A stretch of 64,000 nt of DNA from a virus. Below, piece after piece: positions 3,668 through 59,452 of this stretch. The DNA lies in the IMG/VR virus record IMGVR_UViG_3300024323_000001, positions 1 to 64,000 of that record; one strand, 5' to 3'. The translations under genes and the position numbers were made by a program. The notes under the pieces were generated by a model. It saw only the letters and a list, made by a program, of their open reading frames with translations, was not told the DNA's origin and did not search any database. Each line of letters starts with the position of its first letter. Position 1 is the stretch's first letter.

Positions 3668-3883
3668 TCACGATGAGCCGCCGTTTGTTGGGAGCGTCGC
3701 GAGCGCAGCCTTGCGGGTCATCTGGCGCTGTGAATATGTCTGGAGGGCTTGGCCGAGCAGGTAAGCGAAGAGGATTGGGTCGTGGACGTTCTCGGTGATG
3801 GAGACGGTCTTGGTGAGAGGGTTGATGACGATTTCGATGCGGAGGTCGTGCTTGCCAGCGTCGATGCGGGTGGGGTCGCTCAC
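3668..3883 (-). CDS. Small protein downstream of portal (71 aa)
   Basis: The start overlaps the portal stop (ATGA), so translation is probably coupled to portal. The product (MSDPTRIDAGKHDLRIEIVI...) has a beta hairpin-like start and a helical C-terminus. Unknown family; the position suggests a head-assembly accessory. Confidence 0.7.
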   Translation of the reverse strand: MSDPTRIDAGKHDLRIEIVINPLTKTVSITENVHDPILFAYLLGQALQTYSQRQMTRKAALATLPTNGGSS

Positions 3884-5796
3884 TTGGACTCCGTGATCTT
3901 CCCGGCTCCGCCCATCTTGGGCATCGTTTCGCCAGAGGCTTTGCGGCCGGTGGCGCTCACTTGCGGCGTCAGTCCCATATTGTTCTGAGCGATTAGGCGG
4001 TCGGTGATGGTGATGGCACCATCGGGAGCTTTGCCCGCGTTCGGGATGCCGAGCTTCTCGAACAATGTCCAGATATCCATGAGTCCAGCTCTCATAAGCT
4101 GGATGTAAAGGAGCTTGTCCGTCACCTCGGACGCGCTCAGCAACGAGCCCGGCGCCACGTCATACGTGAATTGTTTGAGGAACCACTTCGCCCGGATATG
4201 GCGCTCGACGTTCTTCCCTTCCTTCTGATGCTCTTGGGACATGTAGGCGGGAATCATCGTGCCCGCGTCATTGTCAGCGTCCTCGAAGGTCATCCCTTCG
4301 TCGCCGAGCACAGCGAGTCGGTCTTCGAGAGTGTAGAACTGGAAGACGTTCGAGAGAGACATCATCGCAAACTCGCGCAGCGACGCCTCTAGGACTCGTG
4401 AGCGCATCCTGATAGCAGGTGACATCGCCTCGAGAATCTTCTCCACGGTCTCGGTCGAAGGGATCTGGCCGAGATTCATGAATTGCTGCATATCGCGGAC
4501 GCCGCTAATCTTGTCCATCTCGTCGCGGAGGTCTTGGATAGCCAGTTGGACGGAGGGATCCAGAGGCTGAGCGTACTGAAGCTCAGCGTTCTTCCCTGCG
4601 ACGGGATTGGTGCGGAGCTTCAATCCAGCTTTGCGCGTGTCGATCGCCGCCATCGCAGCGCGAGAGATGGCGTTCTTGTCGGCGATGAGGTCGGGGCGGA
4701 AGACCTTTTGGTTGTGGTCCGAGACGCCGCGGAGCAGGCGATGGAGTTCGTCTTGGAGCGTGAGGATGTCCATGAGCGGCGGTTTACCCAGCCACGTCCA
4801 CGGCCATGGGTCCAAGGGAATCTTCACGATAGGGAAGAGGCCGTGCCAGTAGATATTCGGCCCGTCGCGGAGGACACAAGTGCGAGTGAAGGTGATGGTG
4901 CGACCGCGAGGATAGATGCGGTCACCAGGGTCTACCCAGTAGGACCAGTTCGGGTGCTTCTCGGGCGTCCCCTCCCCCACCCACACGCGCGAAGCGCTCT
5001 CGTTCCGGCGGAGGTCGTGAACGTGCAGCGTGAACACATCGGCGGAGGGAATGGTCATGTGCGCCGCGGGCTTGCCGCCGAGCGATGCCCACAGATTCCG
5101 CATGAAGCTCGAGAAGCCCATGCGCTGCATCGTGGATTGGGCGCGCGTGACCTTTTCCATCATCGCCGCCGACATGTCGCGGTCAGCTTTGATTAGGCCG
5201 CGGTCCCACTGGCGAGGGTATTTGGCGCGCAGGTAATTGAGCGGACGCTCACGACGGACGATGAGGCCCATTGCATCTTGGATGGAGATGTTGTTCGGCG
5301 GGCGAATAGGGAGGCAATCACGCGGGTCCTCAGGCGAACAGTCATTGTCCCCCGTGAACTCGTTGTAGAAGAGGTGAGCGTAGCCGGAGCCCGCGACCTC
5401 GGCGTACTTGATGCAGTCGCAGAACTTGAGGTCGATGAGGCGCGAGGTCCACCAGTGCTTAGTGAGCTTGTTCCCGAGCACCGCCTGTTGCTCGTAGCGC
5501 TTGTTCTGCGTGGTGTAGTTCCAGAACGGTTTGATGTCGGTCATCGCGCCGGCGAAGTCGAGGGCGATCTTGCCGAAGCGATTGTCGATGAGCTTCGAGA
5601 ACGAGCCGGGGACCATATCGCGGGAGTAGTCGCCCATGATGTAGTCGATGCACGTCGAGATTTGCGAGTAGCCGACTTGGGACTTGAGGAAGGATTCGCC
5701 CTCGGCGAGCGCGTCATTGGCCCAGCCTAGAACGGCGTCGAGATGCTCTTGCTCACTATCATTGAGGCTTCCTGCGGGGGCTTGGGGCTCGGCCAT
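3880..5796 (-). CDS. Portal protein (638 aa)
   Basis: Length, place directly after the packaging genes, and pattern fit a podovirus-type portal, the dodecameric ring through which DNA enters the head. Features include an acidic helical N-terminus with a conserved-looking YIMGDYSRDMVPGSF segment, a central beta region, and a long C-terminal helical part (DEMDKISGVRDMQQFMNLG, then ETVEKILEAMSPAIRMRSRVLE) that matches stem and wing helices of portals. It is Trp- and Tyr-rich, as is common in portals. The 71-residue gene follows with an ATGA overlap. The exact family was not checked against a profile. Confidence 0.82.
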   Translation of the reverse strand: MAEPQAPAGSLNDSEQEHLDAVLGWANDALAEGESFLKSQVGYSQISTCIDYIMGDYSRDMVPGSFSKLIDNRFGKIALDFAGAMTDIKPFWNYTTQNKRYEQQAVLGNKLTKHWWTSRLIDLKFCDCIKYAEVAGSGYAHLFYNEFTGDNDCSPEDPRDCLPIRPPNNISIQDAMGLIVRRERPLNYLRAKYPRQWDRGLIKADRDMSAAMMEKVTRAQSTMQRMGFSSFMRNLWASLGGKPAAHMTIPSADVFTLHVHDLRRNESASRVWVGEGTPEKHPNWSYWVDPGDRIYPRGRTITFTRTCVLRDGPNIYWHGLFPIVKIPLDPWPWTWLGKPPLMDILTLQDELHRLLRGVSDHNQKVFRPDLIADKNAISRAAMAAIDTRKAGLKLRTNPVAGKNAELQYAQPLDPSVQLAIQDLRDEMDKISGVRDMQQFMNLGQIPSTETVEKILEAMSPAIRMRSRVLEASLREFAMMSLSNVFQFYTLEDRLAVLGDEGMTFEDADNDAGTMIPAYMSQEHQKEGKNVERHIRAKWFLKQFTYDVAPGSLLSASEVTDKLLYIQLMRAGLMDIWTLFEKLGIPNAGKAPDGAITITDRLIAQNNMGLTPQVSATGRKASGETMPKMGGAGKITESK

Positions 5797-17213: not shown

Positions 17214-17751
17214 CCCAATCAGCTCCACAGACCGCTTGCGCCGGCAGCGGAAGGCACTCAGAGAGGGGATCCTAGCGTGCATCCTGATTCTGCTCGCGTG
17301 GATAATTCTGCTCACGCTCGTAGCGCCGCGCCTCAAGGGGCAGGAATTGGCCCTAGCAGCCAATATGGGAGGACTTAGCCCTGCGGAGTCTCTACCATCG
17401 ATGCCCGCGCCGAAAGTAGCGCCTACCTCCCTAGCTATCAGGAATCCGGCCACTCTAGGGAGGTTCTGGGACACTCCCAACCGGACCAGCGCCATCGTGA
17501 TGCTCGGGCTCGCGGGCGCGGACATGGCCCAGACGTGCCGATTCCTCGCGCGGGGGCGCCATGAAGACTACCTGACTCAATCGTGCGCGGGCAATGTCGC
17601 TCTGACTGCGGCCTTCGAGGTCGGAGCGATCGCGGGCGCGTGGGCGCTCCACCGGAGGGGCCATCACAGATTGGAGCGGGTGCCCATGGTGTTTATGGCG
17701 GGGCAGAGTGCGAGGGCGATCGCCTATAGCCGTGAGAAGGGGGGATGGTAA
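17203..17751 (+). CDS. Membrane protein, unknown (182 aa), GTG start
   Basis: GTG at 17203 follows AGGAGG; this start is preferred to the longer frame. One strong N-terminal membrane segment (GILACILILLAWIILLTLVA, residues about 24-43) follows an Arg-rich cytoplasmic start, with weaker hydrophobic stretches later (AIVMLGLAGADMAQ and AAFEVGAIAGAWAL). A phage inner-membrane protein made early could be an exclusion factor, but there is no direct evidence. Confidence 0.65.
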   Translation: MENSPISSTDRLRRQRKALREGILACILILLAWIILLTLVAPRLKGQELALAANMGGLSPAESLPSMPAPKVAPTSLAIRNPATLGRFWDTPNRTSAIVMLGLAGADMAQTCRFLARGRHEDYLTQSCAGNVALTAAFEVGAIAGAWALHRRGHHRLERVPMVFMAGQSARAIAYSREKGGW

Positions 17752-26043: not shown

Positions 26044-26232
26044 ATGAAGAAAACCAAGCTGACGAAAGCGCAAGTGAAAGTTAAGCATCTGGAGAAATTA
26101 CTGGAACGGCGCAAACGTGAGATTGAGGGAGTTCGTCGTCGCTGTGATGAACAAGTGGCTCAGATTGAGCGCAAGAACGCATTCACGAAATTTCAGCTTG
26201 AATCGATTCTAAAGGGTGAATGGCCGCTCTAA
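26044..26232 (+). CDS. Small basic coiled-coil protein (62 aa)
   Basis: ATG at 26044 follows GTGGAGGAA. Almost entirely one charged helix (KVKHLEKLLERRKREIEGV). Its last codon lies just before the polymerase start. Confidence 0.65.
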   Translation: MKKTKLTKAQVKVKHLEKLLERRKREIEGVRRRCDEQVAQIERKNAFTKFQLESILKGEWPL

Positions 26233-26233
26233 A

Positions 26234-28966
26234 ATGCCCATCCTCCTCAAACCCGACTCCTGCTCCTCGTGCTCGCTCTACGGCGACGGCAAGGGATTCT
26301 CGCGCAACGAAGGGCACGGGACGAATGGAGTCCTAGTTGTGGGTGAAGCGCTCGGGCATAACGAGAAGACCGATGGCCTACCGTTCCGGCCCTACGCGCA
26401 AAGTGGAAGTTTATTCGAACGTGCATTGAAGCGCTGCGGTCTCTCGCGCGACCAGTTCCATATCACGAACGTTGTCCGCTGCCAGCCTCCGCATGACCAT
26501 CTCGTCGGCGCAAGCTACGAGTTCGACGCCATCCAGAATTGTCATCAGTATCTGGCGGAGACGCTCCGAGTGTTCAAGCCCCGCTCGATATTGGCGCTCG
26601 GTGGCACCGCGGCGCGCGAGCTGACCGGATTCAGCGGGACGAAAGAGGGCGTCTCGTTCATCCGCGGCTACGCCATTCCATGTGCGCTCAAGGAAGCCGA
26701 AGGGATTCCCGTTGTCTCGACATTCCACCCTTCGTTCCTGCGCCAAGGGAAGCCTACCTACTTCGGTGTCCTGGTGCATGACCTGATGCGAGCCGTGCAG
26801 ATTGCTAAGAGCGGCGCGACGACTCCAATCGCCACGACCTACCAGACCCACCCTTCGCTCGACGACGCTCTCGCCTTCGAGCAGCGCTGCTGCGCTGAGC
26901 AGGGCCGATGGCTCACCTACGATATCGAGACACCGAACTCGGCCGAGATGAGCGAAGATGAGAGGGATGAGGAGCGAAGCTATGACATCCAGCAAATCCA
27001 GTTCTCACTCGGAGTGGGCGAGGGAATCGTATTTCCAGCGACGCCTGAGTTCATGGATATCGCTCGGCGCATCATGGCGCTGGAGCATCGCAAGGCCGGA
27101 TTCTACAATCACCTTTTCGACGATGCGAGGCTGAGAGCGAATGGTTTCCAGTTCGGCGGCCCGCCGCCTCACGACTTGTATGAGATGTGGCATCACATGC
27201 AGCCTGATCTGCCTGCCAATCTACAGTTCGTGGCGAGCTTTTACGGAATGGATTCGCCCTGGAAGCATCTATACGGAGTCGATCTGGCCCTCTACGGCTG
27301 CGCTGACGTGGATGCTCCTCATCGCATTCTGGGCGCTCTACCCGAGCAGCTCCGCAAGCGCGGACTCTGGGACGGCTACGAGAGGCTCGTCTACCAAGTA
27401 CGACCCATCCTAGACCGGATGAGCGAGCGCGGCATTCCCATCAATGACGAGCGCCGGCGTGCCTTCGGCGCGGAGCTGGACATTGTCGCCGCAGAAGTAG
27501 ATGCGGATATGCAGCGATTGGTGCCTGAGGAAATCCGCCGTCTGAATCCTCCACAAGGATATAAGCGTGGCCCTGAACATAAAGGTAGCAGCATCCCAGC
27601 GAATGTGTTTGATGGTATGGATACGTTCGTGAATAAGGGGAAGGACGAAGACGGCGAGCCTGAGACGATTCATGCCGTGTGGAGGCAGCGGAACTTTAGC
27701 GGGGCAGTCCGCTGGGTCAAGGTCCTCGACTTCCGCACGTCATCCAAGCAACTAATTAGGTATATGGTTCATAAGGGCCACCCGGTCCCCATGAACATCA
27801 AGAAGGGCCGCGAGACCTCGGAGGCGAAGGAGTTGGAGCGCCTCGCGAAGAAGACACATGACCCGCTCTATCGCAAGGTGATCTGGCACCGCGAGGTGCG
27901 GCTGATGAAATCGACGTTCGTCGATGGGTGGGCACCGAGTGAGCGCGACGGCCGGGTGCATACCACATTTACGTTCGCCCCGGCGACGCTTCAGCTCAGC
28001 TCGCGCGACCCCAATGTCCAGAACGCCCCCGAGCACGAGAAGGAAGGCCGCACGACGGGCCTAGCGGATAAGTTCCAGCGCATCATAGAGGCACCCAATG
28101 GCTATAAAATCGTCTCGTTCGACCACAAGTCGTTCCACGCGCTCACGCTTGCACATCTCGCGGGAGATGGCGACTACATGCGCGTGGTGCGGTTGGACGT
28201 TCACAGTTTCCTTGCCAGCCAATTCCTCAAGCTGGCTCCGGCACATAAACTGCTCGAAATGCGGGATGAAGAACTGCGTGAGTTTCTTGCGGGAGTTAAG
28301 AAAACTCACCGTGCTGTACGCGACGGGAAAGCAAAACGTACGATTCTCGGATGGGGTTTTGGAATGCAGAAGCGAACTCTCTATAACACGTATATGGAAA
28401 GTTTCGCCTCCGAGGCTGAAGCAGGGCAGATGATTCAATTACTGGAAGCCTCGTTCCCCAAGACCGTGAAGTGGCGCAAGCAGATCCAATACAAAGCGCA
28501 CTACGACACTTACCTAGTGAATTCGTTCGGGGCGATCCGCTGGTTCTGGGACGTCTTCAACTTCGGCCCGAACGGCCAGCTACGGAACGGCGAGCAAGCC
28601 GAGCAGGCCATCGCCTACCTGCCGGCGTCGAATGCGTTCGGGATGATGCGCGAGGAAGCGCGTGAGATGGAGCGCTGCGGACTGGATGAGCGCTACGGGC
28701 TGGTCAACAACGTCCATGATGCGTGGAAGTTCGTCTGCCCTGACGCGCTCGTCGAGGAGTGCCTTCACACAATCAAGCCGCTGATGGAAGCGCCCTCGGC
28801 GACGTTCGGTGGGCTGTGGTGCGCGGTGCAGGCGTCGGTGGGTCAGAACAATGCCGCGAAGTCGGCGGAGAATCCGAATGGAAGGGAAGAGGTGAGTGTC
28901 AATGTCCAAGATACGATTGAGCAGCGCGCAGTGCGAGAGAATCCGGGAGTCGCTGCGGCACTATGA
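26234..28966 (+). CDS. Uracil-DNA glycosylase (family 4-like)-DNA polymerase A fusion (910 aa)
   Basis: Residues 1-195 are a family-4-type uracil-DNA glycosylase: Cys10, Cys13, Cys83 and Cys103 for an Fe-S cluster, GEALGHNE (38-45) and HPSFL (165-169). Residues about 225-375 are a DnaQ-like 3'-5' proofreading exonuclease: YDIET (229-233), NHLFDDARL and YGCADVDA. Residues about 380-910 are a family A polymerase: SSRDPNVQNAP (589-599), motif A with Asp630 (SFDHKSFHALTLAHLAGD), motif B KRTILGWGFG (from Lys701) and motif C VHDAW (His828, Asp829). Motif A lacks the usual Glu, and motif B has Leu and Phe where Phe and Tyr are typical. UDG-polymerase fusion is known in SPO1-like phages. A GTG start at 26216 is also possible. 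Confidence 0.9.
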   Translation: MPILLKPDSCSSCSLYGDGKGFSRNEGHGTNGVLVVGEALGHNEKTDGLPFRPYAQSGSLFERALKRCGLSRDQFHITNVVRCQPPHDHLVGASYEFDAIQNCHQYLAETLRVFKPRSILALGGTAARELTGFSGTKEGVSFIRGYAIPCALKEAEGIPVVSTFHPSFLRQGKPTYFGVLVHDLMRAVQIAKSGATTPIATTYQTHPSLDDALAFEQRCCAEQGRWLTYDIETPNSAEMSEDERDEERSYDIQQIQFSLGVGEGIVFPATPEFMDIARRIMALEHRKAGFYNHLFDDARLRANGFQFGGPPPHDLYEMWHHMQPDLPANLQFVASFYGMDSPWKHLYGVDLALYGCADVDAPHRILGALPEQLRKRGLWDGYERLVYQVRPILDRMSERGIPINDERRRAFGAELDIVAAEVDADMQRLVPEEIRRLNPPQGYKRGPEHKGSSIPANVFDGMDTFVNKGKDEDGEPETIHAVWRQRNFSGAVRWVKVLDFRTSSKQLIRYMVHKGHPVPMNIKKGRETSEAKELERLAKKTHDPLYRKVIWHREVRLMKSTFVDGWAPSERDGRVHTTFTFAPATLQLSSRDPNVQNAPEHEKEGRTTGLADKFQRIIEAPNGYKIVSFDHKSFHALTLAHLAGDGDYMRVVRLDVHSFLASQFLKLAPAHKLLEMRDEELREFLAGVKKTHRAVRDGKAKRTILGWGFGMQKRTLYNTYMESFASEAEAGQMIQLLEASFPKTVKWRKQIQYKAHYDTYLVNSFGAIRWFWDVFNFGPNGQLRNGEQAEQAIAYLPASNAFGMMREEAREMERCGLDERYGLVNNVHDAWKFVCPDALVEECLHTIKPLMEAPSATFGGLWCAVQASVGQNNAAKSAENPNGREEVSVNVQDTIEQRAVRENPGVAAAL

Positions 28967-35630: not shown

Positions 35631-36188
35631 ATGAATCTATCTCGCAGACAATTTAACGGCCATTTGGTCTATGGGGGATTAGGGCTGGCTTTGGCTGGCG
35701 CTTCAGTATCACTCGAAGGATGCAGCGCACTCGACAACCTCACCACCTGGGTTCCGGTGGGGCTGGCGGCGTTCGACGGCATCGCGGCTATCGTGGATGG
35801 ACCGTTCACGGCCATCGCTACCACGGTGGACAACCTGTGGGCCGCTGTGCAGAACGCCATAAACCTCTACCAGCACTCCACCGACCCGCAAGTAACCCGC
35901 CTCGACAAAGTAATCGCCACGCTCGACGCGCTCTCAGGTGGACTCACTCAAGCTCTCGCTGCGCTCCCTGTCAGCATCCCCGCCGCCGTCCTCTCAGCGG
36001 CAAAGCTCGGCTTGACGTTGCTCATCTCCACGCTGAACAGCATCCGCAACAAGCTCCAGCCTGCGCCCGTTCCTGCGGCCATGAAAGCGGCAATCGGCTC
36101 GGTTGCTCCGGCCAAGAACAAAAACGACTTCATCAAAAAGTTCAATGCGATTATGGCTGACAACGGCCAAACGCTTCGGGTGAAATAA
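35631..36188 (+). CDS. Tat-signal lipoprotein, unknown function (185 aa)
   Basis: The N-terminus has a twin-arginine motif (LSRRQF, Arg5-Arg6), a hydrophobic core (YGGLGLALAGASVSL) and a lipobox LEGC with Cys31. This predicts Tat export and lipid anchoring. The mature part is helical with Ala/Val/Leu-rich repeats and a Lys-rich C-terminus. AAGGAG precedes ATG 35631. It overlaps the papain-like peptidase gene by the TAATG motif. A surface or periplasmic lipoprotein made by a phage is often a superinfection-exclusion or receptor-block factor; that is inference here. Confidence 0.7.
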   Translation: MNLSRRQFNGHLVYGGLGLALAGASVSLEGCSALDNLTTWVPVGLAAFDGIAAIVDGPFTAIATTVDNLWAAVQNAINLYQHSTDPQVTRLDKVIATLDALSGGLTQALAALPVSIPAAVLSAAKLGLTLLISTLNSIRNKLQPAPVPAAMKAAIGSVAPAKNKNDFIKKFNAIMADNGQTLRVK

Positions 36189-48767: not shown

Positions 48768-49466
48768 CTATATCTCCCCTGTCAGGATCCGCGCCAGCTC
48801 TATGCCCTCTTGGAATCTGGATTCGGCGTGCGCGGCGCGTTTCGGGTCATTCCCTTCATACTCGCCCACAAGCATATCCGCACGAACACCCCAAGCCAAA
48901 TAAGGAGTGTAGTCATCCGGGACCGATAGGAACATTCCCGAGCCGTCCACTTGAGTTCCTTGGGCATTGGCGATGATCTCCATCTCTCCGGCGTCCGTGG
49001 GCGTTGGGTTCACCGCGATCGTAAGCGACGGGAGATAATCCTCCATGTAAACCTCGGGACGTGTGGCGGTCTTCGTGGGCCATCCTGTGACACCGTGGTC
49101 TAGTTCCCAGCCAGTCGCGCGCGGAAGCTCTGTATAGGCCATCGGGTCCGTTTCGTTGGCCCATGCCACACGGCGAAGGTCGATGACGTTCTGCGGGATA
49201 GAGTAGCGGAACTGGTTCGATTGGCCCGCTTGATAGGCCACCATGACCGAGACGCCGCTCTCGCTCAGGAATCTCCGCTGACGGTCATTCAGATATTGGA
49301 TTACCTGGGCGGAGGTCCAGATTTTAGACTGATATGAGGCACCTTGCGTGTCAGGTTCGAGCAGAGAGAGTTGGACGGACGAGAGGATGGTCTGGTCGGT
49401 CACGTCGAACTGTGGAGCATCGCTATTGTAGGTGCCCCAACCGAATCGCCCTTGGCCCCAGCCCAT
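48768..49466 (-). CDS. Head-tail adaptor-like protein (232 aa)
   Basis: The helical N-terminal part (WTSAQVIQYLNDRQRRFLSESG) and the late segment VPDDYTPYLAWGVRADML match podovirus adaptor proteins that bind below the portal ring (gp4/gp11 type). The start overlaps the spike stop (49466). Confidence 0.65.
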   Translation of the reverse strand: MGWGQGRFGWGTYNSDAPQFDVTDQTILSSVQLSLLEPDTQGASYQSKIWTSAQVIQYLNDRQRRFLSESGVSVMVAYQAGQSNQFRYSIPQNVIDLRRVAWANETDPMAYTELPRATGWELDHGVTGWPTKTATRPEVYMEDYLPSLTIAVNPTPTDAGEMEIIANAQGTQVDGSGMFLSVPDDYTPYLAWGVRADMLVGEYEGNDPKRAAHAESRFQEGIELARILTGEI

Positions 49467-52400
49467 TATTGAATCACCGTCGTCGTCGTGCTCACGGCCT
49501 TCGTCGGAATCGGCAGAACAACCTTACCCGATAGTCCGTTCACTGAGCTTACGCCCATCGGAATATAAGAGCCGCCATTCATGGAAATCCACATGCACGC
49601 GCACTGGAGAGAGTAGCAAAGTTGGGTTGTAGCTGGGACCACGGGGCAAAGTGTGCGGTCAGACATGATGCCAGCAAAATTGACAGGAGAAGTAGCTGGT
49701 GGGCCTGTAGATGTGCCAAACACCGAGAATATATCGCTGCCAGCAGATGTATTATCCGCGAAGGATACTTGTCCGCCCCAGTTCTGTGGAGCGCCAACCG
49801 GCTGAAATATGACCTGGAAGGTGCAGAACTGGCCGGGCGTCAGCGTAAATCCTGCTCCGGGCGATGCCAGTGTGACCGTCGCGGAAGCTCCACAAGTGTT
49901 GTTGGTGAGCGAGAAAATAGAGTTCACCAACATACTGATGCTGCCGACGACTAGATTCGCGGTGCCGACGTTTGTGAGCGTGACGGTTGAACTGGGATTA
50001 CTTGTTAGTCCCACCGGAGCCTGCCCAACATTTAGATTGATGGGCGAGAATGAGACGAGTGGCGCGGGGACTGCTCCGGCGTAACAGCCACCTGCATCGA
50101 AGGGAATCGCTGCTCCGCTTCCATCCGCCTTCCCGCCGAGTGACAGATAGCAGTTGAGTGAGGGGATGGCGTTGACGTGTCCTGCCCAGCCCACAGTAGT
50201 CGTGCCGCTCACTGGACATTGAGTTCCCGAAGTGACGGGCACGCCCGCCATCTGGCTAGTTGTGTTCCATGTGCCCGTGCAGTAGACGATGTTTCCGCCC
50301 GTAATATCTGGACCGATAGAGGGCCAAGGTAGTGAGCCAAACCATGATGGTTTCGAGGTCAGATAGAAAGACGCTGGGAGTGGCGGTTGTCCAGCGGTTG
50401 TGTCCCCCACTACCGGAACAAATCCGGGGTAAGTGGAGAACGAAGCCGCCGCTTCTGAAACAGAGTTGCAATTCCCAGCGTTCGTAAAGAGCGTGTTTCT
50501 CGCGTTGCCGCACCAGCGGATAGCTGCCGTCACTACGTCCCAGTTCCCGTAGCGAACAAGCGAGGTCCCCGAGAGCGTATCGTTCGGCATCGAGCCGACG
50601 TTGCCCTGACAGCTCACACCGATCTGATAGGCGTAGGTGTGATTGTTAGCTGGGGAGCATGTGCTAGTGAACTGATATGTATTTGTGGCAAAGGCCGGAG
50701 TTCCAAAGACGTTGGCGATGTCGTTCGCTCCACGGGAGCCGTAAGAGTGCAGCACCGACATCTGTGTGGGTGATGATGCTAATGTAGGCGGAGCAGAGAC
50801 GGTCGCCGTGATGAAGTTCCTGAATAGCGTTGGAGCGAATGAAGAATTATGGATACCATCCGCCGCTGCGATGGCGTTGCCGTAGTTGCCTTCGAAGAGA
50901 TTGTGGTCGGCGGGGCCGTGTTCGTTGAAACACTCTTGGAAGAGATTCGAGGTCGGTGTGGCTTGTAGGCAGGTATTGTAAGCCTCTACGTTCCCATTCG
51001 CCGCGCCATCGAAACTCAGAGGAGTCAGTGCCTGCTGGATGATGTTGTTGTGGAACCGAGACGAGGAAACCACGAACCGCCGCACGCCGTAGGGATTCGC
51101 ATTTCCAGCGATGTGATAGACGTAGTTGCTCACAAACTCGTAGTTGAGCAGGTAGAAGCCGTTGAATCCGTACTGCTGCATGTTCTTGATGGCTACACCG
51201 GAAGTCCAGCACTGATAGCAGCCCATCGCAGCAACGCCCACGCCAGTCGTCACTCCCGTTCCATCAATCGAAAGATTCTCAAGCCCGAGCTGCACGGCGG
51301 GAGTGAAGGCATAGACATCCGGTGTGTTGGAAACAGGGATATTCGTCGGAACGATGGGCGGAGAGATGGTGAGATTCGTGCCGGAGACATTCGTGACGTA
51401 GACAAGTTGTGCCTGCTGACGGCCTGTGTTGAATCCATTCGGCCCGTCTTGGGAGACACCGTTGGGGTTGTTGCATCCGGTTGTTGCGAACTGGTCGCCC
51501 GTGTTGAACCACTGGCCGTTGTCGATAGCGCAGCCCGTCGCCGGGTCGCCTGAATAGCCTGTGTCAGCAACGTTGAGCAGGAGCGCCGAAGACGTGGTAA
51601 TCCCTGTAGAACTTCCTACGCCAATTACCGTCGAGCCTTGGGGGAATCCGCTGGTCCACGTTGTCGTCTGTCCGCCAGCAGAGCCGTTAGGCGTTCCACC
51701 CTTCTGGCAGACGAGTGATGGCCCAGCAGAGCCGCAAGCTACTCCTGGCGAGCCTGTGAATGTGAGGAATGTACTGTTCGCTCCGTTGCCTCGCAGGACG
51801 AGTTTATTGTGAGAGCTGGGATATAAGATTCCCGTACTGAGAACGAACGTGCCGGAGCCAAGCTGGACGTACTGATTCGCTCCGCAAGCAGCGAGTGCGG
51901 TTGTGATAGTTGTCGCTGTTCCCGTGTAGGCCGCGATCGTAGGACCACACTGGGTCCATGAGGCAGAGGGGATATTGAATCCAGCTTTGGTCCAGTCAGT
52001 CGCACGACCGGGAGTTACAATCCCATCAGAAGGAAGCGGCGCAGCACCAAGGGCCGCAAACTGTGAAGTAGAGTAGCCCACATTGTAAATCTGGATGTCA
52101 GAGTATTCGGTGAATGCTCCCGGTGGCATCCCGGCGTTCTGTCCTACACCCGGTCCACAGTTGGTGGTGCAAAGCGCGATGGAGTTTCCATTTCCGAAGT
52201 TAAGATAGAGAGGAGCGCCAGCGGCTCCAGTTGAATACGCCGTTCCAAGCAAAGTTCCCGAAGTGGTGTAAGCCTGGATTACGATGCAGTCGGAGAACTT
52301 CGTTATGTCGCCGCAGGCCGCGCTTGGAACGTACTGCCACACAATCTTGATATGCGTGTTTGGCGTGAAGTTGACATGCTGGCCGCCGCTTCCGCCCTCA

Positions 52401-52903
52401 ATAGCCACGGAAGCATTTGTGCCGTTAGCATCATAGTTTCCTAACCGTGACTGGACTCCCGTAATCAGTTGGAAGAAGTCGAAGGTCGTCCCGAAGCTAT
52501 AGGGAGTCGCTGGAATTGTGGTACAGAACCAGAATGAACCGCCCCATGCGGACGATGCTCCACTCGTGGGAGCACGAAGAAAGATGTTCTGGCTGGCGTT
52601 ACCGCCGCCAAGAGAGGTGCTGTAATTCAGGTAATTCCCGCTATGGCCCGGAGGGTCGCCGTCAGCACAGGCAGTTGCACTTTGGATCGTCAGCGCACCC
52701 GAAGAGTTCGTGATGACCTGGTTGCCACTGCCGTTGTTCGTTCCCGTGCCGAACCAAGAATTGAACAGTGTCAGGCAATCTCCGCTTCCGCCGTTACATG
52801 AAACAAGGGTGTGTCCACTAGGGAACTGGGAAAAAGTTTGGAGCGAGTATCCCTGCGCGAAAAGAACGGCGGGAAAGAGCAGCAATAGAAGTAGCCGTTT
52901 CAA
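49466..52903 (-). CDS. Tail spike with signal peptide, beta-helix and Ig-like end (1145 aa)
   Basis: Begins MKRLLLLLLFPAVLFAQGYS, an apparent Sec signal peptide. About 30-270 is a jelly-roll/LamG-like region. About 290-760 is repetitive with short strands and Asn/Gly turns, as in right-handed beta-helix spikes. The C-terminal region has an ASH/HYDIN-type Ig repeat (PINLNVGQAPVGL..., VTLTNVGTANLVVGSIS), frequent in Acidobacteria surface proteins. Probably binds or cleaves a surface glycan. Confidence 0.7.
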   Translation of the reverse strand: MKRLLLLLLFPAVLFAQGYSLQTFSQFPSGHTLVSCNGGSGDCLTLFNSWFGTGTNNGSGNQVITNSSGALTIQSATACADGDPPGHSGNYLNYSTSLGGGNASQNIFLRAPTSGASSAWGGSFWFCTTIPATPYSFGTTFDFFQLITGVQSRLGNYDANGTNASVAIEGGSGGQHVNFTPNTHIKIVWQYVPSAACGDITKFSDCIVIQAYTTSGTLLGTAYSTGAAGAPLYLNFGNGNSIALCTTNCGPGVGQNAGMPPGAFTEYSDIQIYNVGYSTSQFAALGAAPLPSDGIVTPGRATDWTKAGFNIPSASWTQCGPTIAAYTGTATTITTALAACGANQYVQLGSGTFVLSTGILYPSSHNKLVLRGNGANSTFLTFTGSPGVACGSAGPSLVCQKGGTPNGSAGGQTTTWTSGFPQGSTVIGVGSSTGITTSSALLLNVADTGYSGDPATGCAIDNGQWFNTGDQFATTGCNNPNGVSQDGPNGFNTGRQQAQLVYVTNVSGTNLTISPPIVPTNIPVSNTPDVYAFTPAVQLGLENLSIDGTGVTTGVGVAAMGCYQCWTSGVAIKNMQQYGFNGFYLLNYEFVSNYVYHIAGNANPYGVRRFVVSSSRFHNNIIQQALTPLSFDGAANGNVEAYNTCLQATPTSNLFQECFNEHGPADHNLFEGNYGNAIAAADGIHNSSFAPTLFRNFITATVSAPPTLASSPTQMSVLHSYGSRGANDIANVFGTPAFATNTYQFTSTCSPANNHTYAYQIGVSCQGNVGSMPNDTLSGTSLVRYGNWDVVTAAIRWCGNARNTLFTNAGNCNSVSEAAASFSTYPGFVPVVGDTTAGQPPLPASFYLTSKPSWFGSLPWPSIGPDITGGNIVYCTGTWNTTSQMAGVPVTSGTQCPVSGTTTVGWAGHVNAIPSLNCYLSLGGKADGSGAAIPFDAGGCYAGAVPAPLVSFSPINLNVGQAPVGLTSNPSSTVTLTNVGTANLVVGSISMLVNSIFSLTNNTCGASATVTLASPGAGFTLTPGQFCTFQVIFQPVGAPQNWGGQVSFADNTSAGSDIFSVFGTSTGPPATSPVNFAGIMSDRTLCPVVPATTQLCYSLQCACMWISMNGGSYIPMGVSSVNGLSGKVVLPIPTKAVSTTTTVIQ

Positions 52904-53643
52904 TGCAGCACCACCAGGGATGTAACGCTATTCACCGCCGCGCTTGTCGTCCAGTTTCCGGTGATCGCCGCAGCCGTTGTCTGCACGAAATGTTCCTCAT
53001 TCTGCGAAACGCTTCCTGAGCTTCCGTCGCGGGTGTAGGCCGGGGTTGTACCAGCGGTGTAGGTGCGCCCGTTCGCGTTCACGTCCGCGACCATCGAGAG
53101 CAGGAAGGAATTATTATTGGTTGGCGTGAGCGTTGGACTGGAAGGCGCTGTCGTAACTGCCTGAGTGCCGCAATCTACTTTATCTATAGGAGCCGTGGTC
53201 GAGACGTTACTGACTTCTTCGGCCATGAACCAAACGAACGCTGGAGAGCTGCTGAACGTGACGGTGAGAGTCTTGTCATTTGCTCCCCCTGCTAGATTCT
53301 TGAGGTAGTAGAACTGGGCGAACATACCGGAGAAATTGCATGTCGTTGAACCGGATGCCCACGCCTGATTAACGTAGGCTGTGCTGCTGGCATTGACGAA
53401 CGAAGAGATGGTTGCGGTATTCGACCAGACAATCATCACCGCAATCGTGTCGGTAGCCGTTGGGTTGCTGCCAAAGACGAAGGTCTGTGGGCTGCCGCCG
53501 CCGTTCCTGAATACGGGAGTGAACGCCTGGACTAGCGCGGGAGTCGGCGGAGGCGCACCAACCACTCGGCGTCTCGCTGTGACAACTTCTTGCAAGGAGC
53601 CGAGAAAGAATATTAGGCAGCAGAGAATGGCTTTGAGTTGCAT
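52900..53643 (-). CDS. Secreted-type beta-sandwich protein (247 aa)
   Basis: ATG at 53643 overlaps the upstream stop (TGATG). The N-terminus (MQLKAILCCLIFFLGSLQ) looks like a signal peptide. The rest is a beta sandwich with a pattern (MFAQFYYLKNLAGGANDKTLTVTF...) also seen in the SGNH spike around residues 530-600, so the two share a domain. Probably a receptor-binding or spike-attached protein. Confidence 0.65.
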   Translation of the reverse strand: MQLKAILCCLIFFLGSLQEVVTARRRVVGAPPPTPALVQAFTPVFRNGGGSPQTFVFGSNPTATDTIAVMIVWSNTATISSFVNASSTAYVNQAWASGSTTCNFSGMFAQFYYLKNLAGGANDKTLTVTFSSSPAFVWFMAEEVSNVSTTAPIDKVDCGTQAVTTAPSSPTLTPTNNNSFLLSMVADVNANGRTYTAGTTPAYTRDGSSGSVSQNEEHFVQTTAAAITGNWTTSAAVNSVTSLVVLH

Positions 53644-56600
53644 CAGAACGTGTACTCCACAATCATCGCAATGTGCGTTCCCGTGAGCGTCCCACCCATT
53701 ACCGGGTTGATACCTGTGCCAGTTGTCCAGCTTGCGTTCGAGACTGTTCCGCTGGAACTCATCGCGTTGCTGTTTCCGCAAGTCAGAGCGCCAGAGAGGA
53801 TAGTTGTGCCTGTGCCGCTCGCTCCGAATGTCGGATTGACTGTCGTCGTATTCGCACCGTTGTCGCTCAGGCATTTTACGGCGGTAATCGTCCGCGTCAC
53901 ACCGGAGTCGTTGTAGCAGGTGTTGTTCGAGATGGCATCGTCGCCTGCCGTCAGAGCGAACGACGAGCCGGAGCCGCCCCATACTTCCGTGCAAGTACTC
54001 TTGGTGTACTGGACGGGAATGTCTGCCGTGACCATCGCCCCACATGAATAAATTCCCGCTACTGCCGTGGCGTGAGCAATGTTCGTTGTCGTGGTGCAGG
54101 TAGCCGTAGTCACCATCGCCAACGCATCGGCGTTGTTCGTGAAGATATGTCGAATCTTGGCGGTTGAGTCGTAGCCATCCATCGACGTTGCACTGGTCGT
54201 GAATCCCGCGCCGGTTGGAACTTTCACTGTGGCCCCAGAGAAGTCCTGCAATCCTGTCCACACATTTGAGGCGTTGTAGAGAGCGGCGTGGCTGGCTGCT
54301 GTGAGCATCGCGTCCGTGATGTTGCAATAGGTTGGCGCTGCCGGCGCTCCCGTGCAATTGGCTAGAACTTTATTCGCCCCACCGCTCACGAGCGTCAGCG
54401 TCACGGCACCCGTGGAAAGCGAGTTGTTGAAGATGATTCCATCCCCAGTAATACTCGATACGCCCGCTGAGGACGAGCCGCAGCTAAAGACGCCCGTAGC
54501 CGTGGTGAATTGCAGCGCGTTGCCGCCACCTATGCAGTTCGGGAATGCTGTGAAGTCGGGCAGGCGCGAGGCGAAGTAATTTATCCCATCCGACCAGAAG
54601 AATACGGTCCAGCTTGGAGCGATTAGAAGCGTGGTCGCTCCATTGATGGTGAATCCGCTCGCTGTCGCCGTGACCGTTCCCGTGCCGATATTCTTGATGA
54701 CGAAAAAGTGATTGAATCCATATCCCGTCGTTGAGGGATTCACGAACGTATAGGTCTGTGCGCCCGCGTTGTTCGCCGTGATGAGATAGCCACGGTCAAA
54801 GTCGGTGTTGGCGGTTCCGATGGTATAAGTCGTGCCCGTTTGAGCGTTTATTGGGACACCGGGATTATCAATCGCAGGGTTAACTGCGACACTCCCTGTC
54901 ACACGATAGTGGACGTTATAATTTCCGTTCACAATGGGCGAGTTCACGCCCGCACACGTCCCACCGCCTCCGTTGTAGAGTGTGGCTCCAGTTGTGCCGC
55001 CCGGTGTGCAGCCTCCTCCACCACCGCCTCCACCCAGCCCATAGGCGTAAGCGTTCCCACCCTTCAGGAATACGTGCATCCCGGAGTTGTTGGGGATCGT
55101 GATGTTTCCCGTGGCCGCGTTGCCGTGGAGCGTTCCTGCGCTTACCGTCAGCGTCGTAGTTCCTGTTTCGCTGTAGACATCCCACATCTGCCCGTCGCCA
55201 AGTGTGGTGTCAATCGTAAAGGTCAGCGTGCCTTGAGCGTTGACCGCGCCTTCAGCCTTTGTGAGCGTGTGATTGCCGGTGTAGTTGACGGCGGCTGTCG
55301 CCAAGCTCGCCGTCCTGATTCCGGGCAAGGAGCCATTCGTCTGCCCGATGGACGTGGTGTTCATGTTCTGCCCGAGTTGCAGGGCGTTCGTTGCGCTGAT
55401 GTTTTGCAGGATGAGTGAAGCGAAGGGAGAGCCGGAGACTAACGGCGCGTTGCTTGATGGGAGATCGGAGCCATTGATTTGAATCGTTGCGCCGAGCGAA
55501 GCGGCTGGAGCGGCGATGTATGCCACCATCGGCGCTGGCCCGGTATCGTTATACAAATCCATGATGGAGAAAAAGCCAGCGGTGTTGCCTGCGTAGTACG
55601 GTTGGAAGGAGATAAGAGGTGTGATGTTGCCCTGCCACTCTTCTCCGCCAATGAAACGTCCCGATAGACCCGAAATGTGCGGAACGATATAAATTCCCCG
55701 CGTGGTTCCTGAAATGTAGTCGAAGTTCATTAACGTGTTGAATTTGCTGATGAATACGGGTGTTGTGGTTTGCCCGACCTGGGCTTGTCCGCCGTTAAGC
55801 ACGCTGTTGGCAACAAAACTTGAGTTCCGAATCTTGTAGCCGAATGCTCCCGCCCCACTCGACTGGTAATCGTAAAAGAGCACATTCATATAGTCGTCGG
55901 GGGAGGCAGAGAAAAAATTGTCATCCTCAAATATCTGGGCGGCATGAGAACTAGTGTTGAACACACCAACGACGCCATTTCCGAATACATCTACGTCCAC
56001 TTTATTTAATCCAGCACTGCCGTTGGTTATCCAGATTCCGGGGTTGGCAGTGAACACGAAGATGGGAATATGAGGGCGTAGACCGTTGCTGGCATTAATC
56101 ATGCGTTTTGCGGATAGGTCCGTTCCGTACCAGTTGCCGTTGAATTTCAGGGTGTCCCGCAGACAGACTGACCCATCTTGGATGATGGCGTTCACGCCGG
56201 TAAGGTCCAGGAACGTGCTGATCTCGTAGCAGTAGACTTGCGTGGAGTTGTTCTCTACCACCACTGGGAAGCGGCAGGTTCCGCCTGCGCCTGTGACAGC
56301 ACTGGCGTTTGTGGCCGAAACACAAGCAGCGATATTGGGAGCGTTGTCGAATCTGGCTTGCGCTGTCGTTACGCTCGTGGAAGCGTTGTTTGCCAGCGTG
56401 AGTGTCGTTCCCGCGATGTTCGTAATCGTGGTGACAAGCGTATCGTTAACGGGCGATGCGGGAGGCGTTGTCGGTGCCCACCAGCTAACCGGATACCCGC
56501 CGGAGATGGTTGCTCCCCAATAGTCCCAAGTATTGTAGGTGGTGTCGGTGTAGCCAAGACTTGCGATGAGCGATTCTCCAACTTTCGTTCCGCCGAGATA

Positions 56601-58217
56601 GATTTCGTATTGGAGTCCGCCAGCGCCGGGAGTCGGCAGCGCGAGATGGTCGCCCAAGAAGTAGCGGACGTTTCCGCCTGTCGCGGTAGTCGTAGAGATG
56701 CCAACGGCGGCGTTGACTCCGCTTACGTATGTGATATGCGTCCCATCAGGAACACTGGCGACGACTTTTACCCCGCCGAACTCCGCATCATCCGTGGTGC
56801 CATTGATGGTAATTTCGCAACCTGGAGCTAGTTCTGCTGAACTGGCGATTGTAGCCGTAAAGGTATTGGCTACACCGGAAGCAATGCTGGTGATGGCCTG
56901 ACTATGTGCTCCGGGCGTTGCGTTTCCTGTTGTCGTGGTTCCAGCAGAAGAAGCAGCGGTAAGTCCCTGCCCTACGTCGCGCATCGCAATTTGATAAGAG
57001 CGCGTTGTCGCACCAGCACCAGCAGCAACTACGAATCCCGTGCCAAGCGGTCCAGCAGCGCAGACAGGCGTAACCGTTGGCGCAACCGGCGTGGTCATCG
57101 ATTGCGAAGCGCCAGCGCCTACGATGGAAAATCCATCCCCAACTTGCAGGCCCGTGTTGGCGGAAACTACCGCTGAGTTGGTGCCGGATGAAATTGTTGC
57201 CGTTGGTGCAGGAGTAGCGGTGGGCGCTACTGCTCGGACGCCGAACTTCCGCATGTCCACGCTCGGATTTGGCCCGCGATTTATGTTGTCGTCGCTGTTC
57301 GTCAGTACGCCACTGGATTCATTGAGATTTGTAGGTTGGCAAGCTCCTGCGGTCCCAGCGGCTTGGATATTTCCCTGACCGCCAGATGAGGAACAATTCC
57401 CACCGCCACCACCTCCACCTGCGGGTTGAGTTAGTTGGCTCCAGTTCGTCCCATCGAAGCTGAATGTCTCATCCGTGCAGCCCGTCGTCTGAATCGCGGT
57501 CGTGTTGAGAAAGTTCGCAGGGAAGGCGAACGTCCATGGCGAACCTGCGCCTTGGCAGATATGGAGCTTCATCACGACGCCGTTCACGGGTGTCCCGCTC
57601 ACGCTCGACGACGTGACGTTTCCGGTGAGCGTGATTCCATAAGCAGCGTTGAGAGTCCCAGAGAATGACGGAGTCGCGCTGAACGCTACCGTCGAGAACG
57701 GCAAGGGAGCGCCTACACCTGCTCCTGCGCCATTGGAATTGACGTTAATCCACTTGCCGACAAGACCGTCCCACACCCACGTCGAAGCGGAACAGACGTT
57801 GGCGTTCGGCGAGACTGTCACAGGCGAGGGAGATTGGAAGTTGGAAGGGAACGCAAAGGTGAATCCGCCCGTGGCGTTCTGACAAGCAATCAGATAGAGG
57901 ATCTGGCCGGATTTGATTCCGGGCTGATTCACCGTGGACGAAGTGACGTTCCCACTCAGCGTGATGGCGAACGTGTTCCCTTTGGTCAGGTCGAATACGG
58001 GAGTGGCGCTGAACGGAACGGAGACGAACCCGCCGTGGAAGACGCCGATCGCCGCGTCGAGAGTATCGAAATCCTGGTTGATGTAGATTCCACCGTTCGT
58101 AGAACCTATTTTTGGCTTCTTTAGTCCAAGATTCGGCGTGGTCGTGAAATCGTTCTGGGCTCTCGCGCCAGCAGCCCACCCGAGCATCAGCAATAGAAGA
58201 ATCGTCCGTCTCATCAT
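53643..58217 (-). CDS. Giant tail fibre/spike with signal peptide (1524 aa)
   Basis: Starts MMRRTILLLLMLGWAAGARA, an apparent Sec signal peptide with ARAQ cleavage. The next residues (FTTTPNLGLKKPKIGSTNGG) match a common tail-fibre N-terminus. Two copies of a beta domain follow (about 66-158 and 176-262). The middle (about 290-1000) has long beta-rich regions, perhaps including a beta-helix, and the C-terminal part has Gly/Thr-rich fibre repeats. Main adsorption fibre by size and place. Starts right after an adaptor-like gene (4-base overlap). Confidence 0.72.
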   Translation of the reverse strand: MMRRTILLLLMLGWAAGARAQNDFTTTPNLGLKKPKIGSTNGGIYINQDFDTLDAAIGVFHGGFVSVPFSATPVFDLTKGNTFAITLSGNVTSSTVNQPGIKSGQILYLIACQNATGGFTFAFPSNFQSPSPVTVSPNANVCSASTWVWDGLVGKWINVNSNGAGAGVGAPLPFSTVAFSATPSFSGTLNAAYGITLTGNVTSSSVSGTPVNGVVMKLHICQGAGSPWTFAFPANFLNTTAIQTTGCTDETFSFDGTNWSQLTQPAGGGGGGGNCSSSGGQGNIQAAGTAGACQPTNLNESSGVLTNSDDNINRGPNPSVDMRKFGVRAVAPTATPAPTATISSGTNSAVVSANTGLQVGDGFSIVGAGASQSMTTPVAPTVTPVCAAGPLGTGFVVAAGAGATTRSYQIAMRDVGQGLTAASSAGTTTTGNATPGAHSQAITSIASGVANTFTATIASSAELAPGCEITINGTTDDAEFGGVKVVASVPDGTHITYVSGVNAAVGISTTTATGGNVRYFLGDHLALPTPGAGGLQYEIYLGGTKVGESLIASLGYTDTTYNTWDYWGATISGGYPVSWWAPTTPPASPVNDTLVTTITNIAGTTLTLANNASTSVTTAQARFDNAPNIAACVSATNASAVTGAGGTCRFPVVVENNSTQVYCYEISTFLDLTGVNAIIQDGSVCLRDTLKFNGNWYGTDLSAKRMINASNGLRPHIPIFVFTANPGIWITNGSAGLNKVDVDVFGNGVVGVFNTSSHAAQIFEDDNFFSASPDDYMNVLFYDYQSSGAGAFGYKIRNSSFVANSVLNGGQAQVGQTTTPVFISKFNTLMNFDYISGTTRGIYIVPHISGLSGRFIGGEEWQGNITPLISFQPYYAGNTAGFFSIMDLYNDTGPAPMVAYIAAPAASLGATIQINGSDLPSSNAPLVSGSPFASLILQNISATNALQLGQNMNTTSIGQTNGSLPGIRTASLATAAVNYTGNHTLTKAEGAVNAQGTLTFTIDTTLGDGQMWDVYSETGTTTLTVSAGTLHGNAATGNITIPNNSGMHVFLKGGNAYAYGLGGGGGGGGCTPGGTTGATLYNGGGGTCAGVNSPIVNGNYNVHYRVTGSVAVNPAIDNPGVPINAQTGTTYTIGTANTDFDRGYLITANNAGAQTYTFVNPSTTGYGFNHFFVIKNIGTGTVTATASGFTINGATTLLIAPSWTVFFWSDGINYFASRLPDFTAFPNCIGGGNALQFTTATGVFSCGSSSAGVSSITGDGIIFNNSLSTGAVTLTLVSGGANKVLANCTGAPAAPTYCNITDAMLTAASHAALYNASNVWTGLQDFSGATVKVPTGAGFTTSATSMDGYDSTAKIRHIFTNNADALAMVTTATCTTTTNIAHATAVAGIYSCGAMVTADIPVQYTKSTCTEVWGGSGSSFALTAGDDAISNNTCYNDSGVTRTITAVKCLSDNGANTTTVNPTFGASGTGTTILSGALTCGNSNAMSSSGTVSNASWTTGTGINPVMGGTLTGTHIAMIVEYTF

Positions 58218-58903
58218 CGCTCTCCTACTGGTTGGAGGTCGCTCTTGGTACGCCGCGGCCGCAGAATGGGCGGGTCAATGTCCATTCCCATCGCCTTCCT
58301 GAATAGGCTGGACGAGAGGAGCTTCTCATTCTTCACCGCTGCGGCCTTGAGGAAGGATTGGTAGAGCGGGATTGCGGCGTCGAACTCCGCTCCCCCCTCC
58401 TTAAACGCTCCGAGATACTGGCAATAATTGACGAGAGTGTTCAGTTCCTCTGCGCCGATGTCGATTGTGTCGTCTAGGGCGACGAGCTGCGGCGCCGCGG
58501 AGAGACCGTCGATGACGAGAGAGTTGTAGCCTACGGCATCGGCCGGCCGGAGCGCGATGAGGCTGATGCCCACGGGAGCCCACTCTTGCGGAGTAGAGGG
58601 CCGCCCTTCCCACTTTGGATAGCCCTTATCCCAATTGGTGATGGAGCCCGGAGCGAGCGGAGTGGAGTTGAACTCAACGCGCATTCCAGCGGTGAGAAAG
58701 CCCGCGAGACTATAGTAAGGGAGCGTGGGCAGAGTTTGCATGACGATGCGCTGCTTCCAATATCCAGTGAGGCACGACCAGCACCGCAGGGCCTCGTTGA
58801 TATAGCCCTGTATCTCGGTGGGAGTCCAGAACGGCGAGTTCTCGAAGCGCGCGAAGACCATCGCCTGAACTTGAGCGAGCGTGTATTGGGTGCGCACGGA
58901 CAT
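58214..58903 (-). CDS. Adaptor/connector-like protein (229 aa)
   Basis: The N-terminal helices (YTLAQVQAMVFARFENSPFWTP, then EIQGYINEALRCWSCLTGYW) and the body with LQPVGER end match podovirus adaptor-like proteins. A second adaptor-like gene lies at 48768; they may build two rings, or one may be a tail piece. Confidence 0.6.
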   Translation of the reverse strand: MSVRTQYTLAQVQAMVFARFENSPFWTPTEIQGYINEALRCWSCLTGYWKQRIVMQTLPTLPYYSLAGFLTAGMRVEFNSTPLAPGSITNWDKGYPKWEGRPSTPQEWAPVGISLIALRPADAVGYNSLVIDGLSAAPQLVALDDTIDIGAEELNTLVNYCQYLGAFKEGGAEFDAAIPLYQSFLKAAAVKNEKLLSSSLFRKAMGMDIDPPILRPRRTKSDLQPVGER

Positions 58904-59452
58904 TTACTGAACCACCGTCACGTTCCACGCCACGGCATTCGGCGTGATGGGATTGGGCGTGACGTTCGCGAGGCGGACGCTCACCGTGTTCGGGGCGCTG
59001 ACCCATGCGCTCCAAATTAGACCGAATCCTGGGTCGCCTACAGGTGAGACCGAGGCGACGCCTGAGGTGAGAGCGCCCGAGAGCGCAATAGTCTGCTCTT
59101 GGGTGAAGCCTGACGGGATGGTCGTAAACAGGGAGTTGAGCGATAGCGACGCGCCGATCAGAAGCGCACTGACCGCTGAGTTCAGGTCGAGGTCTAGGTA
59201 ATCCGAAAGTGTGTAAGCGGGCGAAATGGTCGGGGAACCGCCGCTCATCTGGACATCATAGCGCCCGTTCGCCGCGTAGAACAGCCACAGGCCGTTCGCG
59301 TCCGAGGTGAAGGGATTCGATTGAGGCGTCGCGAGGTTATCCGAGAAGATTGGAGCGAGCGTGAGCGTCCCTGTCAGGTACACGGTTATCGTCGCCGAGG
59401 CGACGCGCGCACCAGTGGACTGGATTTGGGAGTAGCCGAATCGCTTCTCCAT
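58904..59452 (-). CDS. Tail fibre-associated protein (182 aa)
   Basis: Begins MEKRFGYSQIQSTGARVASA; the part ATITVYLTGTL...FTSDANGLWLFYAANGRYDV is a common phage tail domain (carboxypeptidase-regulatory-like beta fold). Probably connects the fibre to the tail. Confidence 0.68.
   Translation of the reverse strand: MEKRFGYSQIQSTGARVASATITVYLTGTLTLAPIFSDNLATPQSNPFTSDANGLWLFYAANGRYDVQMSGGSPTISPAYTLSDYLDLDLNSAVSALLIGASLSLNSLFTTIPSGFTQEQTIALSGALTSGVASVSPVGDPGFGLIWSAWVSAPNTVSVRLANVTPNPITPNAVAWNVTVVQ

Follow-up and report, generated by a model that had tools for sequence, protein, structure and literature searches.

Predicted Sec signal peptides on candidate spike and fibre proteins in a group of Acidobacteriota phages

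The cytoplasm is taken to be where the adhesins of tailed phages fold and assemble. Published phage signal peptides, judging from the accessible text of the reports, belong to endolysins, to membrane proteins such as Lom or to an esterase of a lysis locus (PMC6116005, PMC12309495, PMC10975493), and the absence of a signal peptide has been used to support a phage over a cell-surface origin of a protein (accessible text of PMC6199706). We found no report of signal-bearing spikes in the open-access literature, a scope outside which lie most subscription journals and all preprints. Here we analyze positions 1 to 64,000 (the window) of the viral IMG/VR record IMGVR_UViG_3300024323_000001, which holds 64,011 bases, and in it four genes in spike or fibre positions whose products begin with strong or, in one case, weak Sec signals.

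The Sec-exported endolysin Lys44 of fOg44 and the signal-arrest-release (SAR) endolysins are likewise phage proteins that use the host Sec pathway before lysis (accessible text of PMC6116005). However, exported endolysins are lysis enzymes and not virion adhesins, and scans against Pfam, NCBIfam and PHROGs found no peptidoglycan hydrolase or lysin family in the four window proteins, which places them apart from this class. The same scans assigned the four to no family, returning two sub-threshold immunoglobulin-like matches. Lambda Lom and the SGNH esterase of the PBR31 lysis locus are also signal-bearing and lie near fibre or lysis genes, but neither is described as a virion spike in the accessible text (PMC12309495, PMC10975493).

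An initial annotation had proposed ARAQ/FAQ-type signals on all four genes. The genes are found where it placed them, on the minus strand; the signal type held for 901-3291, 49466-52903 and 53643-58217 and failed for 52900-53643. Three of the genes form one tight block, flanked by genes 58214-58903 and 48768-49466, while 901-3291 is set apart from it and comes after the portal gene (3880-5796). The relevant features are as follows, with the basis of each in brackets.

53643 to 58217, minus strand: fibre of 1524 amino acids (aa) with a Sec signal and 24 Cys in the mature chain (sequence, signal score 5.95, Cys positions)
58158 to 58217, minus strand: Sec signal peptide MMRRTILLLLMLGWAAGARA, followed by Q, of fibre 53643-58217 (sequence, score; two residues differ in a sister phage)
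58038 to 58157, minus strand: TTTPNLGL N-terminal, anchor-like fibre module immediately after the signal (N-terminus shared with signal-less tail fibres)
52900 to 53643, minus strand: small fibre-block protein of 247 aa with a weak signal (residues 1-23) and 2 Cys in the mature chain (sequence, score, Cys count)
49466 to 52903, minus strand: spike-position protein of 1145 aa with a Sec signal, 32 Cys in the mature chain and a TTG start overlapping the upstream stop (sequence, score)
52856 to 52903, minus strand: Sec signal peptide MKRLLLLLLFPAVLFA, followed by Q, of 49466-52903 (sequence, score)
49958 to 52072, minus strand: residues 278-982 of 49466-52903, homologous to a chromosomal Acidobacteriota surface protein (homology)
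901 to 3291, minus strand: spike-position protein of 796 aa with a Sec signal, an SGNH/GDSL-type hydrolase region by homology and 16 Cys in the mature chain (sequence, score, homology)
3229 to 3291, minus strand: Sec signal peptide MRLRFLITALIATICTLPARA, followed by Q, of 901-3291 (sequence, score, sister comparison)
58904 to 59452, minus strand: tailspike head-binding domain protein of 182 aa that lacks both a signal and Cys (corresponds within the window to the relatives' signal-bearing head-binding domains)

N-termini were scored with a purpose-written heuristic for Sec/signal peptidase I substrates, which weighs n-region charge, the hydrophobic core and small residues at -3 and -1, with a threshold of 4.0. 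Five secreted E. coli proteins scored 4.2-5.9 and LacY 3.57; false positives numbered 3 among 1501 internal Met windows and 8 among 3920 shuffled N-termini, a rate somewhat raised for unannotated open reading frames (ORFs), where alternative starts within 60 codons are tried. On this scale 901-3291, 49466-52903 and 53643-58217 reached 5.69, 4.87 and 5.95; all three open with basic residues, continue into a hydrophobic core and have small residues at the cleavage site, with Q next in the chain. The N-terminus of 52900-53643 (MQLKAILCCLIFFLGSLQEVVTA, followed by RRR) is basic-hydrophobic with an acidic residue ahead of the likely cleavage site; it scored 3.94, below threshold, and its sister-phage counterpart 4.22. 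Among 63 picked window ORFs, a signal at the first start occurs only on three fibre genes (52900-53643 fell outside the set under the overlap rule). Mis-annotated starts were rejected as a source of these signals because of tight overlaps with upstream stops, which amount to 1-4 bases in the three clustered genes. We conclude that three of the four proteins carry real, strong Sec/signal peptidase I signals, which predict translocation and cleavage.

What lies behind such signals is best seen in relatives. The podoviral tailspikes of P22, Sf6, Pam1 and Pan3 share an N-terminal docking fold with these relatives, and likewise have large C-terminal parts. The signal-less window protein 58904-59452 has matches in 33 phage records, among tailspikes, depolymerases and proteins with no annotation; gp12 of the isolates Tunturi_1/2 is one of them. 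Alignment of its head-binding domain led to 42 loci (the scan pattern allowed Cys or Ala, and no other residue, at the key position), and in most of them a signal precedes the domain; most of the signal-bearing loci adjoin structural genes of the Tunturi_1 or window type. In contrast, the 12 relatives fetched from phages of other hosts all have the domain at their N-terminus or close to it, without a signal and without the conserved Cys pair; one of them is the unannotated L077, whose frame leaves no room for a signal. An AlphaFold model of one signal-bearing domain (L048, from 30 rows) had a predicted local distance difference test score (pLDDT) of 85, and its VIA-align ranks 1-13 were all tailspikes or tailspike head-binding domains. 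The Z values are middling (Pan3 7.6, Pam1 6.4, P22 1lkt 6.0 and Sf6 5.9, with a pilin next at 5.1), and the sequence evidence agrees: a profile search of PDB chains was topped by 'Tail spike protein' (E 0.003) and 'Tailspike head-binding domain' (E 0.017). The signal-bearing relatives are thus predicted to contain a P22-type tailspike head-binding domain right behind the signal. The only signal-bearing match to this domain in 396 Acidobacteriota genomes (G226, E 1.9e-4) was weak, not clearly a prophage and, by eye, near a recombinase-like gene; we did not use it.

In the window itself, the fibre 53643-58217 carries the TTTPNLGL module directly behind its signal. The same N-terminus appears in the listed records of Sinorhizobium phage phiM5, Octadecabacter Antarctic DB virus 2 and Ochrobactrum phage vB_OspP_OH. 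Unlike the window fibre, 52 of the 55 viral loci with this module are signal-less; the signal-bearing three are the sister phage (L088), a relative (L089) and L124. Elsewhere in the chain, six of seven signal-less examples tested match tail fibre, spike or collar families, and the place of the module at fibre N-termini suggests a role in docking. Since a signal precedes the head-binding domain in relatives and TTTPNLGL in the window fibre, it appears to have been grafted onto virion-attachment proteins. For the same reason we favor, among the explanations offered by the initial annotation, a purpose in assembly.

Proteins that fold in an oxidizing compartment are expected to have paired Cys. 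Among dereplicated complete chains, mature Cys content was 1.71% with a signal (n = 47) versus 0.69% without (n = 126; p 8e-11), the signal-less pool being made up of the signal-less domain loci and of ORFs that were called mechanically and had a relative in another genome. The unfiltered comparison of 32 and 163 ORFs gave medians of 1.77 and 0.79% (p 2e-5). Genome composition as a cause of the excess was addressed by comparing chains within genomes, where the signal-bearing ones were higher in 14 of 15 (p 1.2e-4), with L015 slightly less and L013 about equal. Additionally, an even number of Cys was found in 37 of the 47 signal-bearing chains (p 5e-5), compared with 53 of the 104 others (p 0.46; Fisher 9e-4). 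Locus L012, assigned to the signal-bearing class by hand from a GTG start scoring 5.41, has 29 mature Cys (30 when counted as signal-less), and moving it gives 37/48 versus 52/103. The mature window chains all have even counts: 16 in 901-3291, 32 in 49466-52903, 24 in 53643-58217 and 2 in 52900-53643.

The head-binding domain allows this association to be followed along a tree, which we built from 55 rows with the two Cys columns removed. Outside it stand L038 and L039 (same domain as L040), L071 (same as L070), L062 (domain interrupted), the poorly aligning L079 and a second head-binding domain in L020, which contains an insert, has no signal and carries Ala at the Cys place. The key-column Cys is present in 28 of 29 signal-bearing rows versus 1 of 26 signal-less rows, and its partner in 24 of 29 versus 0 of 26. 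Within a clade of 33 rows the signal is missing in five, and Cys was lost three times, each time on a signal-less branch; such branches make up 12.3% of the clade length, giving p 0.0018 by length alone. Because Cys content, even counts and the loss of conserved Cys where the signal is lost all point the same way, this pattern indicates that signal-bearing chains are exported and fold with disulfides, which lends indirect support to the export proposed in the initial annotation.

The Cys pattern also bears on whether the hydrophobic N-termini are instead uncleaved membrane anchors, or assembly or penetration peptides retained in the virion. All of them have a hydrophobic core, and lipobox-like variants occur in L011 and L013, as an anchor would predict. 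Nevertheless, we consider this quite unlikely: the charge of the termini and the small residues at their cleavage site follow the canonical pattern (A before and Q after the site in 7 of 10 signals examined), Cys tracks the signal, and the segment is missing before the same domain in all 12 phages fetched from other hosts, so docking needs none.

The closest relatives of the window phage come from Acidobacteriota. A sequence search of 50,697 phage records found relatives of its portal in Tunturi_1 and Tunturi_2 and nowhere else. Six records match its major capsid protein, led by Tunturi_1/2 at 27%. When 84,980 genomes of bacteria and archaea were scanned for the capsid, one locus was confirmed, on a contig of an Acidobacteria metagenome-assembled genome. 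According to the accessible parts of PMC11924767, the Tunturi phages were isolated on Tunturiibacter (Acidobacteriota), and its table lists one host strain for both Tunturi_1/2 and Tunturi_3. The host of Tunturi_1 is Tunturiibacter psychrotolerans X5P2. Signals are present on spike and fibre genes of the isolates Tunturi_1/2 (podoviruses) and Tunturi_4 (a siphovirus): gp12, gp13, gp14, gp16 and gp17 of Tunturi_1, and gp113 and gp114 of Tunturi_4, joined by gp111 if this is read from an upstream TTG. The GenBank start of gp111 lies 119 codons downstream of that TTG (L003 16871-17228, PP885687), so the annotation hides the Sec signal. The fibre-region proteins of Tunturi_1, _2 and _4 have the same architecture as those of the window, as a comparison with Acidobacteria relatives suggested by the initial annotation bears out, and their GenBank annotation passes without remark. 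The fibres of Tunturi_3 have no signals and few Cys (132 of 147 coding sequences scanned, 46 + 86). For Tunturi_5 the scan took in the 35 annotated coding sequences in bases 1-38126 of a 309-kb genome, and we make no claim for it.

More broadly, we examined 19 contigs that encode a related capsid. On their structural strands lie 126 ORFs of at least 250 aa, of which 22 bear a signal, and 12 of the contigs have one or more of these 22. Seven core virion genes (portal, scaffold, capsid, connector, hub and two adaptors) had 91 homologues among pooled ORFs that included the Tunturi loci, and none of these homologues carried a signal. The signals are, by the predictions made here, a trait of this phage group and not unique to the window genome. 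Some fibre-position signals end in lipobox-like motifs (LSAC at L011 13382, LTGC at L013 6344), so lipoproteins may be present in small number among the products.

Comparison with the sister contig shows how unevenly these genes evolve. In 901-3291 the signal is identical, with 4 synonymous and 0 non-synonymous differences in 34 codons, and the first 127 bases are 94% identical, but the mature chains share just 36%. The final 70 residues of 49466-52903 are identical while the remainder is far more divergent (44% overall). These conserved ends, despite the divergent rest, suggest that adhesive parts are swapped while one end stays. A possible source for such parts is visible in the middle of 49466-52903, which shares 30% identity across 741 aa with a surface protein of 2918 aa that is encoded on an Acidobacteriota chromosome and has F5/8C and ASH/HYDIN domains. 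Exchange with host surface proteins therefore does appear to occur, and an ancestry of this kind is supported for the middle of 49466-52903 only. The initial annotation had raised recent capture for the proteins in general, and one could accordingly see the signals as relics of host secreted or surface genes that serve no phage function. As an explanation of the class we find this very improbable. Forms with and without a signal replace each other in front of a single kind of phage attachment domain, the mature chain diverges behind a conserved signal, and relics would not retain conserved Cys only where the signal stays. AlphaFold gave no confident fold for 49466-52903 (two-sequence input, pLDDT 26), and that model was not used.

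Genome searches for chromosomal homologues covered 49466-52903 and 901-3291. Four of the chromosomal homologues of 901-3291 that we examined sit beside phage-type genes. Four phage-type stretches of Acidobacteriota chromosomes (L151, L152, L154 and L155) encode signal-bearing fibres of ~1540 aa, whose mature chains contain 16, 16, 16 and 14 Cys. The L151 fibre, the one scanned, has a GDSL domain (PF13472, E 2e-16). Because 901-3291 matches the L154 protein over residues 23-461, a span that covers the place of this domain, it probably has an SGNH/GDSL-type region. The four stretches look like one chromosomal cassette (2.9-18.6 kb in L151) of an adaptor, the fibre and tail-like genes; the head-tail adaptor was recognized as phrog_442 in L151 (E 1e-14), with L152, L154 and L155 alike by eye. 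In L151 and L152 the cassette lies near genes that resemble purE/purK by eye. It is possibly a domesticated phage or a gene transfer agent.

Three other window genes deserve mention. A plus-strand gene at 26216-28966 encodes a 916-aa fusion that joins a uracil-DNA glycosylase domain at the N-terminus (E 3e-20) to a family A DNA polymerase domain at the C-terminus (E 3e-26). The 185-aa product of 35631-36188 (plus strand) begins with MNLSRRQFNGHLVYGGLGLALAGASVSLEGC, which resembles a twin-arginine (Tat) plus lipobox signal, and has a counterpart in the sister contig. A short plus-strand protein at 17236-17751, with no Pfam or PHROG family, has a signal- or anchor-like N-terminus from an internal start (score 5.57) and is possibly lysis-related.

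Taken together, these data lead us to propose, with a probability of about 0.6, that the window phage, a podovirus of Acidobacteriota, makes its receptor-binding spikes and fibres as Sec pre-proteins, which are exported and attach to the tail at lysis. That these proteins are made with a cleavable Sec signal is predicted directly from the sequence. Export and cleavage by signal peptidase I would follow, as the selection pattern of Cys suggests, and the chains would then fold in the periplasm with intrachain disulfides, consistent with their Cys content, even counts and co-loss of Cys with the signal. The new N-terminus of the mature chain would expose a virion-attachment module, to judge from homology and fold in relatives and from TTTPNLGL in the window fibre. 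Both capsids and tails are assembled in the cytoplasm. Exported spikes would therefore meet the tail hub only once the inner membrane fails, and docking would occur at or after lysis. P22 spikes can join finished particles in vitro. The esterase-type region of 901-3291 would fit a spike that modifies surface polysaccharide.

Several observations weigh against this proposal. We found no virion proteomics, localization or structure for these phages in the accessible literature, and the main text of PMC11924767, in its accessible parts, has no proteomics. No P22-type head-binding domain was found by sequence in the large signal-bearing proteins of the window, where it sits on the signal-less 58904-59452; of the signal-bearing proteins there, only 53643-58217 shows an attachment-like module. 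In the Cys pattern, L019 has the Cys and no signal, L068 a signal and no Cys, and L042, L043 and L046, all among the odd-Cys chains, have no partner Cys. A strict test on independent pairs, few in number, gave 2.7 in the same direction, 0 opposite and 1.3 with no difference (p 0.25). The lipobox-like signals of L011 and L013 would tether a protein to the membrane. Finally, disulfides could also form after lysis, but the link between Cys and signal would then be unexplained.

Export alone would also suit proteins that act outside the virion, as free periplasmic, surface or secreted agents that mask against superinfection, destroy receptors or polysaccharide to free progeny, or serve as decoys. 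This is the chief alternative, and the association of Cys with signals and the SGNH/GDSL-type region of 901-3291 agree with it, as do the signal-bearing SGNH esterase encoded beside lysis genes in a published phage (accessible text of PMC10975493) and the position of lambda Lom in the fibre region (accessible text of PMC12309495). However, a free masking protein has no need of a docking domain, whereas the signal-bearing relatives keep the tailspike head-binding domain, the window fibre keeps a fibre N-terminus and the genes occupy fibre positions. We therefore think it rather unlikely.

Docking of exported adhesins at lysis could be part of a broader two-compartment assembly, for which we see the odds as evenly balanced. 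Spike-less particles would form in the cytoplasm, Sec-exported, oxidized adhesins would be kept in store in the periplasm or envelope, and the two would combine into infectious particles only at lysis. The signal would be a portable module, gained and lost on several unrelated attachment domains in Acidobacteriota phages. Because isolates exist, and because Tunturi_1/2 and Tunturi_3 share one host strain, a direct test is possible. If the spikes are exported, the rule that phage proteins lack signals would fail for a many-membered group of soil phages. Their adhesins could evolve as disulfide-rich secreted proteins that trade domains with host surface proteins, and completion of the virion would become tied to lysis.

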